Positions 6,020-10,448 of a stretch of DNA of 25,412 nt are shown piece by piece. Positions within the stretch are counted from its first letter, which is position 1; each line of letters starts with the position of its first letter. This DNA comes from a virus, in IMG/VR virus record IMGVR_UViG_3300031851_000163, positions 1-25,412 of that record; one strand, written 5' to 3'. The translations under genes were made by a program, and so were the position numbers. The notes beneath the pieces were generated by a model. The model was not told where the DNA came from. It ran no database searches and worked only from the letters and a program-made list of their open reading frames with translations.

Positions 6020-6173
6020 CAAAGGGATCGAAGCATTCCAGAAAGGCGTTTTTAACTCACCATTCTCAAGTGGATCTCTGAACCACAAAGAATGGCAACG
6101 TGGCTTTGATGTAGCCTACGTTGAAAACCAAAAGGGGCATTTGTCTAATGTACAAAGAATTCGAGCAGCATGA
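5988..6173 (+). CDS. Small protein resembling ribosome modulation factor (RMF)
   Basis: This is a 61-aa basic protein. Its pattern, 'AFNKGIEAFQKG', then 'SPFSSG', then 'HKEWQRGFDVAY', follows the A-x3-G-x2-A-x2-xG...P-[YF]...W-x2-G-x3-A spacing of ribosome modulation factor and RMF-like phage proteins. RMF dimerises 70S ribosomes into inactive 100S particles in stationary phase; a phage copy could modulate host translation. GAGGTAGG sits just before the ATG (5988), which overlaps the glutaredoxin 3' end by 32 nt in another frame. The resemblance is a short-pattern match, so function is tentative. It could be an unrelated small DNA- or RNA-binding protein. Confidence 0.5.
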   Translation: MSNPTLTRAFNKGIEAFQKGVFNSPFSSGSLNHKEWQRGFDVAYVENQKGHLSNVQRIRAA

Positions 6174-6576
6174 ATTTGACGTATATGATGCCCCGGCCAG
6201 AGATCGGGCAAAAACCTTCTGGGAACACACAGGATATCACTGTGAGGACCACGAGGATCAATTTGGCGTCGATCTTGTGGTCAGAGGCAAGGGTAAGACC
6301 TTCTATTGTGAGGTAGAGGTCAAGAAAAGCTGGCACGGAGTGCAGTTTAACTACTCCACGCTGCATATACCCGTCCGAAAGGCCAAGTTCCTAACTAAAC
6401 CCACGCAGTTCCTCGTTTTCAACGCCGGATTGCATGCAGTGGCTAGGGTAGGACGTAAGACAGTGGCCGCTGCGCCTTGCGTAGAAGTACCCAACTATAA
6501 ATCGCCCTTTGGAGAGCGGTTTTACGACATCCCAGCCGAGGAAGTAGCATTCTACACCCTTGGCTCCGTGAATTAG
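6148..6576 (+). CDS. PD-(D/E)XK nuclease-like phage protein
   Basis: This is a 142-aa protein. A central D42 ('FGVDLVVRGKG') is followed by 'FYCEVEVKKSW' (E55, E57, K59), the D...(E)xExK layout of PD-(D/E)XK nuclease folds, and then 'IPVRKAKFL', a basic strand common in such small phage enzymes. The start is ATG 6148, with AAAAGGGG about 10 nt upstream and a 26-nt overlap with the preceding gene; TTG 6121 lacks support. It could be a nicking or recombination endonuclease, or a catalytically inactive DNA-binding relative. It is the third PD-(D/E)XK-like reading frame in this block. Assignment rests on motif spacing only. Confidence 0.6.
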   Translation: MYKEFEQHEFDVYDAPARDRAKTFWEHTGYHCEDHEDQFGVDLVVRGKGKTFYCEVEVKKSWHGVQFNYSTLHIPVRKAKFLTKPTQFLVFNAGLHAVARVGRKTVAAAPCVEVPNYKSPFGERFYDIPAEEVAFYTLGSVN

Positions 6577-6585
6577 GAGATTATC

Positions 6586-6810
6586 ATGGAAGAAGTTAAG
6601 TCAGCCCTTAAAGAGGCACAGAAACAGAAGCTACAGTCCGTGTTGGTCTGCGGTTTCGACGATAATGGTCAGGTCTACATGAATAGCTCGATCAACAGCA
6701 TCCCATACATGCACTGGCTATTGAATCGGTCTTTGTTCGAGGTGTCTCTTTTCGAGAAAAACCGTCCAGAAGTAGAGCCTGAACAAGAAAAAAGCCCTGA
6801 GGACAGTTGA
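6586..6810 (+). CDS. Small conserved phage protein of unknown function
   Basis: This is a 74-aa protein preceded by a clear TTAGGAGATT ribosome binding site. The middle ('VLVCGFDDNGQVYMNSS...MHWLLNRS') follows a pattern I know from small hypothetical proteins of many Gram-negative phages: a beta strand, an acidic turn, 'xxSS' and then 'WLLxxx'. No enzyme motif is present and the C-terminus is acidic and Pro/Glu-rich. It is the last gene of the rightward block, and its stop codon overlaps the -35 element of the promoter proposed for the convergent junction. No function can be given. Confidence 0.7.
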   Translation: MEEVKSALKEAQKQKLQSVLVCGFDDNGQVYMNSSINSIPYMHWLLNRSLFEVSLFEKNRPEVEPEQEKSPEDS

Positions 6811-6835
6811 CCTCAGAGCCTTGTATAGGTATAAC
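6807..6835 (+). promoter_or_regulatory. Sigma70-like promoter in the convergent junction
   Basis: TTGACC (6807-6812) and TATAAC (6830-6835) are separated by exactly 17 nt, each one base off the sigma70 consensus. The -35 box overlaps the TGA stop of the preceding gene. It points rightward, yet no gene follows on that strand before opposing late genes begin. Predicted start is near 6842. Its use is inferred. Confidence 0.5.
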
Positions 6836-6841
6836 AATACA

Positions 6842-6912
6842 TGAAAAGTTTGGTCACTTTTCAAGTTAGATAGCAGCCCCTTCGAGCGAAAGCCCGGAGG
6901 GGTTGTTTCTAT
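6842..6912 (+). ncRNA. Candidate small non-coding RNA between convergent operons
   Basis: The predicted transcript of about 65-70 nt would begin just after the promoter at 6807-6835. It folds into a perfect 8-bp hairpin (TGAAAAGT 6842-6849 with ACTTTTCA 6856-6863, 6-nt loop), an 11-nt single-stranded linker (6864-6874) and a terminator-like hairpin (6875-6904) ending in a T-rich run. No plausible reading frame with a ribosome binding site exists inside; the ATG at 6841 opens only 9 codons. The 3' end reaches the last codons of the opposing late operon, so read-through would be antisense to it. This is a structure-based prediction. The same hairpins could simply be terminators for the two operons. 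Confidence 0.4.
6875..6912 (+). terminator. Rho-independent-like terminator at the convergent junction
   Basis: Bases 6875-6883 (AGCCCCTTC) pair with 6896-6904 (GGAGGGGTT) as a 9-bp stem with two G-U pairs and a 12-nt loop, followed on the + strand by TTGTTTCTATTCT. It would end rightward transcripts. The minus-strand version lacks a T run, so the late operon may end otherwise, perhaps at the 6842-6863 hairpin. Confidence 0.6.
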
Positions 6913-9900
6913 TCTACGGGTAGTGCTTCCCGGGTTTGTTCGTCTGTAGATTCACGAACTTTAGCCCCACCTAGCGCCCCTCGAGAGGCCCAGTAAGTCA
7001 TAATCTGCATTGCATCAGCGTCCTTACCTTCAGCTACTAACTTCAAGACACGATCAAATTCTAGAGGTTCAGCCGCTATGAATCTGATTGTCTGTTCCGC
7101 TGCTTCCTGTACGGAACCCTTGTAACCGGCAGTTAGTGCCCCAACTAAGTTTCGTGTAACCGTGGCGGTTGTGTTTAGAACGCCAAATCGAAGCGTGATA
7201 ATACGGTCCATAAGTTTAGTAAGATCTTTGTCATAGGTAATCTTACCGTCTATTGGCGTACTTGAACCCCTTAGGTCACCTCTTAAATTCTTAGACCCAG
7301 CAATTAGCTCTTGGATCTCCAGCATACTTACGATCTGCGCTGCCCTATTGGGGTCATCTGCGAAAAGTATGTTTAGTGTCTTTAGGGTTGGGCTTGATCT
7401 GTCACTTAGTATCCCAACAATCTGCGATTGGGAAACTTGCATAACATTTTCTGAGGTGTCCTTGGTAGAGATTGCCATTGGCTTGTTGGTAAATAACCGG
7501 CTGGCTAAGTCATCGATAAATGCCGCTTGCATACCCTGACGCACCATTGGGTTACCTTGGCTGTCGGCAGCCTCTAGTAGCCTACGAGTAATGTCGGGTG
7601 AGTCCGCAGACCTATAGATTTGTTTGAAGACAGACTGCGGGTTATCCTTAATCTTAGGTACTCCCGGCAGATCAAATACAAACTTTCCGGCTACGTCCCT
7701 AGTAGCATTAGACAGAACTCCGGCTTTCTCCCTAGCTAGGTTAGCTACCGCTTGATCTGCGGTAATTAGGCCAGCCTCTAGTGCCTCTAAGTCTTGTACT
7801 ACGGAGGACCACCTTTCATATACACCGCCACGGATGCGCTTTAGTTGATCTACAAACGGCTGGGTAGCGTTCCGTATGCTACGGGAGGTAACGGTCTGAC
7901 CCGCTTCTAGAGACCTACTAAGGGCATTCATAGCCAGTCCGATGTAAGCCTCAGACAACTCTGGGTTCAGGCTTTGGTCAGCGCCTTGGTTTAAGGCACG
8001 AATAAAAGCCTCTGCATAGGGCGTGAAGTCTTCGTCTACAGACTGCTTTAGAGCATCTAGCCCAGCCTTATAAGCATCTGGTTGCCCTTTAGGTATTCCG
8101 GTTCTTGGACCCGGGGCATTTTCTACAACATCCTTGACCGCCGTGTCGTATGCACGGAGAGGCTGCGTGTTGAGAAATGTTTCTGCATGCTCCATATACT
8201 TGGTTTTAGCGTCTATAAAGGCGGGGTCTCCAATTCCTTCCGCAATAGCATCAATACCCCTCTTCAATGCTATAAGGGGCGCAGCGTTAGTATCTAGCTT
8301 CTGTGCCCGTAAGGCTCTGATACGGAGTTCCAATGCCGGACGCAGTTCAGTATATACTTGTTTAAAACTTGTGCCTTGGTCCGTCAGTCTCTGAACCATC
8401 TCCTCATAGGTCTCTACCGTTAAGGTGCCGGGGGAAGCCGAAGACTTCATGCCAGCGGTACCTACATCAGCCTTTGGGGTCACCAAAGCTAGAAGGGTCT
8501 TTAGCGGGTCTTCGACAGTCTCTGTCAGCGTTACTTGATCGATGAGGTTGGGCCACATCTTAGGATCAGGGAACGATGCTTCTACTAGAGACACGAACTC
8601 TTCAACAGGCAGAGGTATGTCGTCTGGTAGATTTTTAAACGCATCTTTGTACGCAGACGAGGATCGTTGCCATGATTTATATAGGTCTGGACCAGATAAT
8701 TTCTCTAGGAGTGCCCTCATAGTTTGATCAGAACCTAGTGCATTACCTCTACGGGCATCAAGGAGAGCGTCCGTCACAGCATTTCGGCTGGCGGCAACCT
8801 CAAGCTGCTGTCCTACTAAGTCTCGGGTAGCAGTGGCACCTGATAGTTTTTCTGTGGCGTCTTCGACAGCGTCAATTACAGGCCTACCGAGTTGCTCTGC
8901 GGCTAGGTCTACACCCGGGCGAGTTAATCCATCTGAGGCTGCGCCAGCAAGTTCATCCGCTGTCCCAGTAAAAGCGTCGGCCATACCTGCCGCCATATCG
9001 CCTTCTTTAGTTATAATTTCAGGTGCGGAAGCCCTAGATACACGGAGACTATTCATCTCTGATACTATGTTTATTGCTAGATCAGAACGAAATTTCTCCC
9101 ACTCCTTTGCGCCCATGAGACTTTTCTGGAAACTGTAAGCTCGATCTACATACTCATCCACACCCGCCCGTAAGGCGGTTAGGCTGTCCAACGGCATGGT
9201 TTTGTTAGAGAGTAGCTCTGAGGTAAATTCTTTGTTATTGATAAGTACCTCACCCATAATTCTAGCCCGTTGGGCAATAATTTCTGCGGGTGCGCCTACT
9301 AGGTTGGGATCTAGTCCAGACAGGATAACGAGGCCTATATCACGGTCTCTGAAGTTTTTATTAGCGGCTAATGCGCCCTTACCTATCTTCTTGAGTCCTC
9401 TGCCACCCGCTACAGCCAACCGTCCCAGTATGGTTAGTCCAGTTGAGAAGGCTACGTTGTCTGCAAAGTTAGCCAGAAATCGGTTGTCCTCTGGGGATAT
9501 ACCTAAACTAGATACTATTTCGTCTCCAAAGAGAGGCTTAGTTTCCTCTGGTGTTGTAGCTGAAGTCCCTAAGTTTGCGCCCGTACCCGCAATAAGTATC
9601 TGTGACATTACACGGGCAGCGTCTGCTATCTCTGCGGGGGATTTACCTTTCAATTTGGCTAATGCTTTAGATGTCCACTCTGCCATTTTAGGAGTAAGGC
9701 CAACAACCTTAGACAAATTAGAGACTAGCCCAGCGCCACCGATACCCCCTACAATCATTGAGGTGATCTCTTGACCCATCGCATCATACTTATTTTCTGG
9801 GGGTGCTAGAGGAAAATTCTGGCGGGTAGTATTTACGGCGTTGTCTTCCTCATCATCACCTACCTGATCGGCAATTGCCTCTGGTAGACCTGCAATCATT

Positions 9901-10448
9901 CTACCGGCTTGCATTACCCCTCCGGTGATAGACCGAAGCACGTTGCCACCAGTCTCACCAAAGATCATATCTGCGCCACGGGAGCTGGGTGCCGGGACTA
10001 CATACTTCTGTTCCTGTCCATCTGCATCCACACCCATTTGAAACCTTGGGTTAGTTCCATCACCCAGTACATCTGCAATAGGCCCAACGTCAGCCTCTGT
10101 TCCCTGCCTTTCGTATAAGGCTTGGTTAGCATCATCTACTGCTATCCTAAACATCCGACGACGTTCTGACGGCTCTGCCTCACGGAAGTCCGGGTTAGTC
10201 ATCAGGTTTCGATAGATAGGGTCATCTTCGTCAATGCTAGTGATGCCCATAGTCTGAAGTAGACTGGGCGGGGCGTAGTATTGATCTGCGGTAAAGAGTG
10301 GGTTTTCGTCTGGTTTCTCCATGTCCCCAGATTTTCTGGCCATTTCTAAGAGATCTTCTATTGAGGGGCTTTCGCCACCTGTCGATAGATCTCCTGTCTC
10401 TTCCGCCATTTTCAAAAGGGATTCTACGGTTACTTCAGGCTCCATCAT
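6909..10448 (-). CDS. Very large internal/ejection-type virion protein (1179 aa)
   Basis: This is the last gene of the leftward late operon. I recognise no named domain. Size, position after another very large protein and downstream of the tail genes suggest an internal virion (ejectosome) protein, comparable in place to T7 gp15/gp16. The N-terminus contains two related 17-residue segments ('ESLLKMAEETGD' at 9-20 and 'EDLLEMARKSGD' at 31-42). Hydrophobic Gly-rich stretches lie around residues 225-245 ('MIVGGIGGAGLV') and 330-355, which could enter the membrane; the remainder is mainly helical and charged. No transglycosylase motif was found. The start overlaps the preceding stop (ATGATG with GGGGGTGA upstream); two adjacent ATGs make the start uncertain by one codon. 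Confidence 0.75.
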   Translation of the reverse strand: MMEPEVTVESLLKMAEETGDLSTGGESPSIEDLLEMARKSGDMEKPDENPLFTADQYYAPPSLLQTMGITSIDEDDPIYRNLMTNPDFREAEPSERRRMFRIAVDDANQALYERQGTEADVGPIADVLGDGTNPRFQMGVDADGQEQKYVVPAPSSRGADMIFGETGGNVLRSITGGVMQAGRMIAGLPEAIADQVGDDEEDNAVNTTRQNFPLAPPENKYDAMGQEITSMIVGGIGGAGLVSNLSKVVGLTPKMAEWTSKALAKLKGKSPAEIADAARVMSQILIAGTGANLGTSATTPEETKPLFGDEIVSSLGISPEDNRFLANFADNVAFSTGLTILGRLAVAGGRGLKKIGKGALAANKNFRDRDIGLVILSGLDPNLVGAPAEIIAQRARIMGEVLINNKEFTSELLSNKTMPLDSLTALRAGVDEYVDRAYSFQKSLMGAKEWEKFRSDLAINIVSEMNSLRVSRASAPEIITKEGDMAAGMADAFTGTADELAGAASDGLTRPGVDLAAEQLGRPVIDAVEDATEKLSGATATRDLVGQQLEVAASRNAVTDALLDARRGNALGSDQTMRALLEKLSGPDLYKSWQRSSSAYKDAFKNLPDDIPLPVEEFVSLVEASFPDPKMWPNLIDQVTLTETVEDPLKTLLALVTPKADVGTAGMKSSASPGTLTVETYEEMVQRLTDQGTSFKQVYTELRPALELRIRALRAQKLDTNAAPLIALKRGIDAIAEGIGDPAFIDAKTKYMEHAETFLNTQPLRAYDTAVKDVVENAPGPRTGIPKGQPDAYKAGLDALKQSVDEDFTPYAEAFIRALNQGADQSLNPELSEAYIGLAMNALSRSLEAGQTVTSRSIRNATQPFVDQLKRIRGGVYERWSSVVQDLEALEAGLITADQAVANLAREKAGVLSNATRDVAGKFVFDLPGVPKIKDNPQSVFKQIYRSADSPDITRRLLEAADSQGNPMVRQGMQAAFIDDLASRLFTNKPMAISTKDTSENVMQVSQSQIVGILSDRSSPTLKTLNILFADDPNRAAQIVSMLEIQELIAGSKNLRGDLRGSSTPIDGKITYDKDLTKLMDRIITLRFGVLNTTATVTRNLVGALTAGYKGSVQEAAEQTIRFIAAEPLEFDRVLKLVAEGKDADAMQIMTYWASRGALGGAKVRESTDEQTREALPVE
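10317..10433 (-). repeat. Tandem N-terminal peptide motif in the 1179-aa virion protein
   Basis: Residues 6-22 and 28-44 of the 1179-aa protein are two copies of a motif V/P-[TS]-[VI]-E-x-LL-x-MA-[RE]-x-[TS]-GD, 22 residues apart. The copies are diverged at base level. Such a short amphipathic repeat at the N-terminus suggests a docking or cargo-binding segment. Confidence 0.6.

Follow-up and report, generated by a model that had tools for sequence, protein, structure and literature searches.

The convergent gene junction described here in all likelihood carries a conserved phage small RNA (sRNA) gene, whose product is a trans-acting antisense RNA that probably represses the phage's own right-end genes. 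The conserved architecture of the unit, the covariation of its stems, its complementarity to the targets in two blocks and its co-evolution with those targets are shown by the comparisons below. There are no transcript data, and transcription of the unit, repression rather than activation of the targets, and the timing of this control (early-gene shut-off and/or silencing in a lysogen) are inferred.

A candidate sRNA gene between convergent gene blocks

The DNA examined (the window) is a 25.4-kb virus record from an HMO-2011-type roseophage. Around the junction, a 1.2-kb stretch matches Roseobacter phage CRP-3 (host FZCC0040), a member of the HMO-2011-type group of marine podoviruses (PMC9038755), at 94.6% identity, and the identity is 100% through the sRNA element. 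A rightward block of replication and metabolism genes ends with an ORF of 74 aa (positions 6586–6810, plus strand), which has unknown function and for which relatives were seen; its stop codon lies within the −35 box of the putative sRNA promoter. The leftward late block ends at 6909 with an ORF of 1179 aa that converges on the sRNA (6909–10448, minus strand) and is also of unknown function, its product being 98% identical to CRP-3 gp20.

A preliminary description of this junction had proposed a small RNA gene composed of a sigma-70 promoter, an 8 bp hairpin at the predicted transcript start and a 9 bp terminator-like hairpin at 6875–6912. The promoter was confirmed, in that the −35 box TTGACC (6807–6812, plus strand) and the −10 box TATAAC (6830–6835, plus strand) are separated by exactly 17 nt and match the consensus at 10 of 12 positions. 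An automatic promoter scan skipped TATAAC because it requires T as the final base of the −10 box. The first hairpin was likewise confirmed. It spans 6842–6863, reads TGAAAAGT-TTGGTC-ACTTTTCA and displays the hexaloop UUGGUC (6850–6855), with the predicted transcript start at its base, near 6842, a position equivalent to CRP-3 13730. The linker AAGUUAG (6863–6869) and a rightward intrinsic terminator (6872–6912) complete the unit, all on the plus strand. Here the earlier claim held only in part, as the terminator stem is longer and comprises 13 outer pairs beginning at 6872 (6872–6884 with 6895–6907), followed by TTGTTTCTATT. The overall length of the predicted RNA is about 67 nt. By sequence, the unit occupies a spacer without genes and has both a promoter and an intrinsic terminator of its own, with the −35 box overlapping the stop codon of the upstream gene. 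The interpretation as a small RNA gene is supported by conservation of the unit, and transcription has not been shown.

The unit folds far more strongly than shuffled sequences (z −6.65; z −5.8 in a repeat fold). A terminator pattern scan of this one region gave four terminator-like sites where 2.7 were expected, which is not above chance; with a single-region count so close to chance, it is conservation across relatives that decides. No match above the gathering score of Rfam 15 was obtained anywhere in the window.

Overlap with the late operon terminator

The preliminary description had missed that the −35 box lies within a strong leftward terminator. This intrinsic terminator occupies 6785–6822 on the minus strand and consists of a 12 bp stem followed by TTTTTTC; the scan places the stem and its run (12 bp and TTTTTT) at 6822–6791, and the stem-loop contains the −35 box. 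We infer that it would end the late operon. As this terminator is located beyond the sRNA gene, the whole sRNA would be antisense to the 3′ UTR of the late mRNA, and the opposite-strand overlap with the late transcript that is typical of an OOP-type RNA is present by sequence. The suggestion that only a leaky form of the RNA would be antisense to the late operon is corrected accordingly, since no leakiness is needed. A leftward terminator-like structure covers the −35 box in 50 of 54 distinct units. A promoter −35 box that overlaps the stem-loop of a terminator facing the other way is an unusual and conserved arrangement, and conservation of TTGACC could partly reflect the overlapping terminator.

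Conservation and covariation of the unit in related phages

Because pattern searches select for what they seek, relatives were sampled as 80 loci fetched solely by homology of the upstream 141-aa protein, which avoids motif-based selection. In 76 of the 80 loci, a UUGGUC hairpin with a stem of 5 bp or more lies within 60 nt downstream of TTGAC(N), and stems of this length are present in all 76 without any pre-selection on the stem. Three of the four loci without the unit are contigs that end within 200 nt, and the fourth (L284) has a variant unit immediately downstream of the protein gene, on a contig that ends 853 nt further on. The −35 box is TTGACC in nearly all of the homology-fetched loci, with TTGACA or TTGACT in three distinct units; a TA-rich −10 box is spaced at 15–19 nt, and the hairpin begins at the expected transcript start. 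In most loci a linker of the AGTTAG, GTTTAG, GTTTTAG or AGCTAG type comes after the hairpin and precedes a strong terminator.

The preliminary description had named covarying stems and a conserved linker in related phages as the check on its proposal, and these were found. The loop does not vary in any of 28 distinct hairpins, and compensatory changes are present in all nine stem pairs counted. Double-compensatory cells in the 5′ hairpin number 83, compared with 27.6 in shuffles (0/500), and slid controls give far lower values. The second (terminator) stem also covaries in relatives, and a conserved RNA secondary structure is thereby supported by covariation in both stems. Promoter, 5′ hairpin, linker and terminator are kept together in close and middle relatives; clades differ widely in how far the unit lies from the upstream protein gene, and the unit itself is retained.

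A covariance model matches the units of the window, CRP-3, CRP-212, CRP-235 and L091, with a weaker second match in the L112 clade; the variant unit of CRP-738 was missed by the model and was read by eye. The model found none in HMO-2011, HTVC033P, CRP-1, CRP-2, CRP-207, CRP-345 and CRP-603, the junctions of which were also read directly. These phages are a more distant subgroup in which the whole element is absent, and short terminator-only junctions occur in distant relatives. Retention of the terminator stem alone, which had been named earlier as the refuting case, is seen only in this distant subgroup.

A first pattern scan gave 79 loci, mostly representing one unrelated coding gene, and these were removed by a tighter pattern and a hairpin check. 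Bacterial genomes gave eleven matches to the pattern, but their stems reach no more than 2–4 pairs and the matches appear to be due to chance. Homologues of the upstream protein were absent from 385 alphaproteobacterial genomes, in a search without a positive control that shows little.

The junction was also considered as an attachment site. The integration site of CRP-3 is a host tRNA-Met gene (PMC6918029), with no link to the junction, and this idea was rejected. Separately, comparison of L040 and L138 with window positions 6151–10448 revealed that the left side of the junction is ~97% identical (L040) and the late gene only ~40% identical, which points to a recombination breakpoint at the sRNA junction.

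Predicted targets at the right end of the genome

The more important partners of the RNA are predicted to lie in trans, beyond the antisense idea of the preliminary description, which had also missed the matches of loop and linker to target sites in other parts of the genomes of relatives. These targets are located outside the 25-kb window, which stops short of that region, and were read in relatives. In CRP-3, the start regions of the leftward right-end genes gp55, gp56, gp57 and gp60 read CTAACTT-GGAGA-GACCAA-ATG or close to it. The sRNA reads UUGGUC-ACUUUUCA-AGUUAG, so that both blocks are complementary to the target in the correct order and flank the Shine–Dalgarno sequence. The loop has GACCAA at target start codons as its predicted partner, and the linker has CUAACUU upstream of the Shine–Dalgarno sites. 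Among the targets, gp55 is a DUF2958 protein and gp57 a DUF932 protein; their functions are unknown. In L301 (15213–18686, CRP-3 gp53–gp60), several of the leftward right-end genes share a near-identical start motif and resemble a co-regulated set.

When annotated start regions were ranked by sRNA pairing, the four right-end genes of CRP-3 took ranks 1–4 of 60. Right-end genes rank 1–3 and 5 of 59 in CRP-212 and 1, 2 and 4 of 65 in CRP-738; in CRP-235, a weaker case, they rank 1 and 3 of 61. The right-end target sets pair better with the native RNA than with 300 shuffled sRNAs in every isolate (0/300). These sets were named after the ranking had been seen, and the shuffle test is not fully independent of that choice; the duplex energies moreover disregard accessibility and concentration. 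In CRP-235, the three top-scoring start regions do not stand out on average (20/300 shuffles). A comparison that rests on the motif itself is given by GACCA, which in the four isolates occurs near the starts of 11/31 right-end genes versus 7/214 others (Fisher p 4e-7), and no other permutation of this pentamer exceeds two right-end genes. Partial complementarity to several ribosome-binding sites, with co-evolution of the two partners, is present by sequence.

The annotated gp57 of CRP-235 ranks only 50th. In L303 (49880–49946, within CRP-235 gp57) a GACCAA site lies beside an ATG ~60 nt inside the annotated gene, and the annotated start is perhaps too far upstream. The start of the helicase gene also ranks high (CRP-3 gp09, rank 5; CRP-212 gp08, rank 6; CRP-738 gp10, rank 3). 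It may be a further target, with the reservation that GACCAA at this position partly represents Asp-Gln codons.

Co-evolution of the RNA and its targets

The linker co-varies with its target between lineages. AAGUUAG is paired with CUAACUU in CRP-3, AGUUAGAAU with AUUCUAACU in CRP-212, AAGUUUAG with CUAAACUU in CRP-235, CGGUUUUAAU with AUUAAAACCG in L254/L308, and GUUUAGCUAG with CUAGCUAAAC in L257/L313. The L266/L268 lineage has GGAACC in the target, matching GGUUCC in the 3′ arm of the hairpin stem. In L091 the RNA is remodelled, with two hairpins and the loop GUGGUA, and its DUF932 site has been remodelled to match (−40.1 kcal/mol).

In a 12 × 12 matrix of sRNAs against start regions of the DUF932 gene, own pairs are favoured over cross pairs by a mean of 9.7 kcal/mol (row and column centred), and 0 of 100,000 permutations were as strong. 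Some of the 12 lineages are sisters or close relatives, so the result of the permutations should not be read as a true probability. A natural control for the link between motif and sRNA is provided, by sequence, by relatives without the sRNA: GACCA was not found at the starts of the DUF932 homologues in HMO-2011, CRP-1 and CRP-345. The fixed loop is probably explained by its targets, as conservation of loop and linker is accounted for by the co-varying mRNA sites. After these sites were found, several earlier ideas for UUGGUC were dropped, namely a loop resembling the tRNA-Thr anticodon, base pairing to the CCA ends of tRNAs, and a protein ligand.

Proposed mechanism

In the mechanism that we propose, a sigma-70 promoter with its −35 box inside the stem-loop of the late terminator would give rise to an RNA of ~67 nt, consisting of a 5′ hairpin with the UUGGUC hexaloop, the single-stranded linker AAGUUAG and the terminator. 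This RNA would base-pair in trans with the initiation regions of several leftward right-end genes (CRP-3 gp55, gp56, gp57 and gp60), the linker pairing just upstream of the Shine–Dalgarno sequence and the loop at the start codon. Pairing of both elements around these sites would probably block ribosome binding. The role of the RNA could be early-gene shut-off, lysogeny or immunity; early expression of the right-end genes is itself inferred.

With the late terminator located beyond the sRNA gene, the late mRNA would include a sequence complementary to the entire sRNA and could act to titrate it, which again is inference. A bolder reading that we can offer only as a possibility is a self-timed RNA circuit in which the late operon switches the sRNA off by sponging. 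The sRNA would silence the right-end set early in infection or in the lysogen. Leftward late transcription would then cross the sRNA gene before terminating and thereby block the sRNA promoter, and the late 3′ UTR would carry a perfect target mimic (CUAACUU...GACCAA). The overlap of terminator and promoter would be the conserved hinge of such a switch. If the proposed function is correct, a conserved RNA whose several targets belong to the phage itself and evolve along with it would amount to an RNA-level control circuit for these phages, and uncharacterized right-end genes (DUF932, DUF2958 and DUF2786-like) are pointed to as a regulon under common control. The rules of pairing are defined clearly enough to be tested with compensatory mutants.

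Comparison with known phage RNAs

The junction sRNA appears to work like known trans-acting phage sRNAs and is OOP-like in its position, with no match to a curated family; this is inferred from sequence alone. VpdS of phage VP882 and PreS of lambda are phage-encoded trans-acting sRNAs (review PMC12197685) and resemble it as short phage RNAs that regulate mRNAs by base pairing in trans. They differ in that the action described for them is, together with Hfq, on mRNAs of the host (and some of the phage), whereas the predicted targets of the junction sRNA are several of the phage's own right-end start sites, with which it co-evolves lineage by lineage. The OOP RNA of lambda is also less than 80 nt long, has its own promoter and terminator and, as an antisense RNA, overlaps the 3′ end of a phage transcript read in the opposite direction. 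Its effect on cII is exerted in cis, whereas the conserved loop and linker of the junction sRNA have their matches in trans, at start sites far away in the genome. P22 sar, P1 C4 and P4 CI are likewise phage antisense RNAs that control phage gene expression, but they have other targets and another biogenesis, and the junction sRNA has its own promoter and several targets. The C4 and CI RNAs are processed and serve immunity. Lambda boxB and HK022 put offer a likeness of form, with a 5′ hairpin near the transcript start in which a variable stem carries a conserved loop. These elements alter RNA polymerase in cis, whereas the junction hairpin has an immediate terminator and co-varying mRNA partners. 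A site of the boxB/put kind at the start of antiterminated operons was not found where sequence of CRP-3, CRP-212 and CRP-235 was searched. The literature that we searched yielded no paper on small RNAs of HMO-2011-type phages.

Alternative explanations

The alternative that survives best is that the RNA serves mainly in lysogeny or immunity, like P4 CI RNA or P1 C4 RNA, rather than as a lytic timing switch. The RNA would then keep right-end genes silent both in the prophage and in sister phages that enter the cell. Integration of CRP-3 at the host tRNA-Met gene (PMC6918029), the integrases encoded by CRP-212, CRP-235 and CRP-738 as well, and the host sigma-70 type of the promoter speak for this possibility. 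Against it, there are no expression or immunity data beyond the documented temperate lifestyle of CRP-3, and the immunity RNAs of P4 and P1 are processed from longer transcripts. On balance we lean away from it, without being able to set it aside.

Two further alternatives have little support. The first is cis-antisense control of the late operon in the manner of lambda OOP, by pairing with the 3′ UTR or by transcription collision. In its favour, the late terminator (6822–6791) is beyond the sRNA gene, so that the late mRNA would hold the full complement, and the unit is kept in clades that differ widely in its spacing to the upstream protein gene. However, complementarity in cis is automatic, and it leaves unexplained both why the loop is invariant where the stems vary and why there are matches at start codons far away. 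A cis effect may nevertheless act in addition to control in trans, for example through titration of the sRNA by the late mRNA. The second keeps the same targets with the opposite sign, pairing serving to activate translation or to stabilize the target mRNAs. Some sRNAs do activate, and sequence cannot give the sign, but the predicted duplexes generally span the Shine–Dalgarno sequence up to the start codon, which is the usual geometry of repression.

The remaining alternatives can be all but discarded. A hairpin bound by a phage or host protein that reads the loop, such as a boxB-type antitermination site, would suit an invariant hexaloop on variable stems, which is typical of protein ligands, but the searched sequence of CRP-3, CRP-212 and CRP-235 contained no further convincing UUGGUC hairpin, a strong terminator follows at once, and the co-varying mRNA sites explain the conservation of loop and linker. 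Bidirectional termination alone, with the promoter-like sequence and first hairpin incidental, is consistent with the presence and conservation of both terminators and with the terminator-only short junctions of distant relatives, but the first hairpin is not a terminator and yet has an invariant loop and a covarying stem, the −10 box is kept at near-fixed spacing, and start sites far away both match the loop and linker and vary along with them.

Additional sRNA-like units

Related phages carry further units that resemble the trans-acting sRNA gene proposed here. In L272 (4434–4570) and in L284, a unit composed of TTGACT-17-TACTAT, a UUGGU-containing hairpin and a terminator is positioned directly after the upstream protein gene; a target for this extra unit was sought in the L272/L284 clade and not found. 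The clade formed by L112, L134, L271–L274, L278 and L279 has a second TTGACC unit ~560 nt away with the same layout and a different loop (L112 6843–6953, loop around AUUAACUAC). Its predicted partner is a leftward gene of 58 aa (L112 6393–6567, minus strand), which is situated between the two sRNA-like units. Complementarity of ~25 nt to the start of this gene covaries between strains, and the second unit suggests that small RNAs directed at start sites may be a recurring device in these phages.
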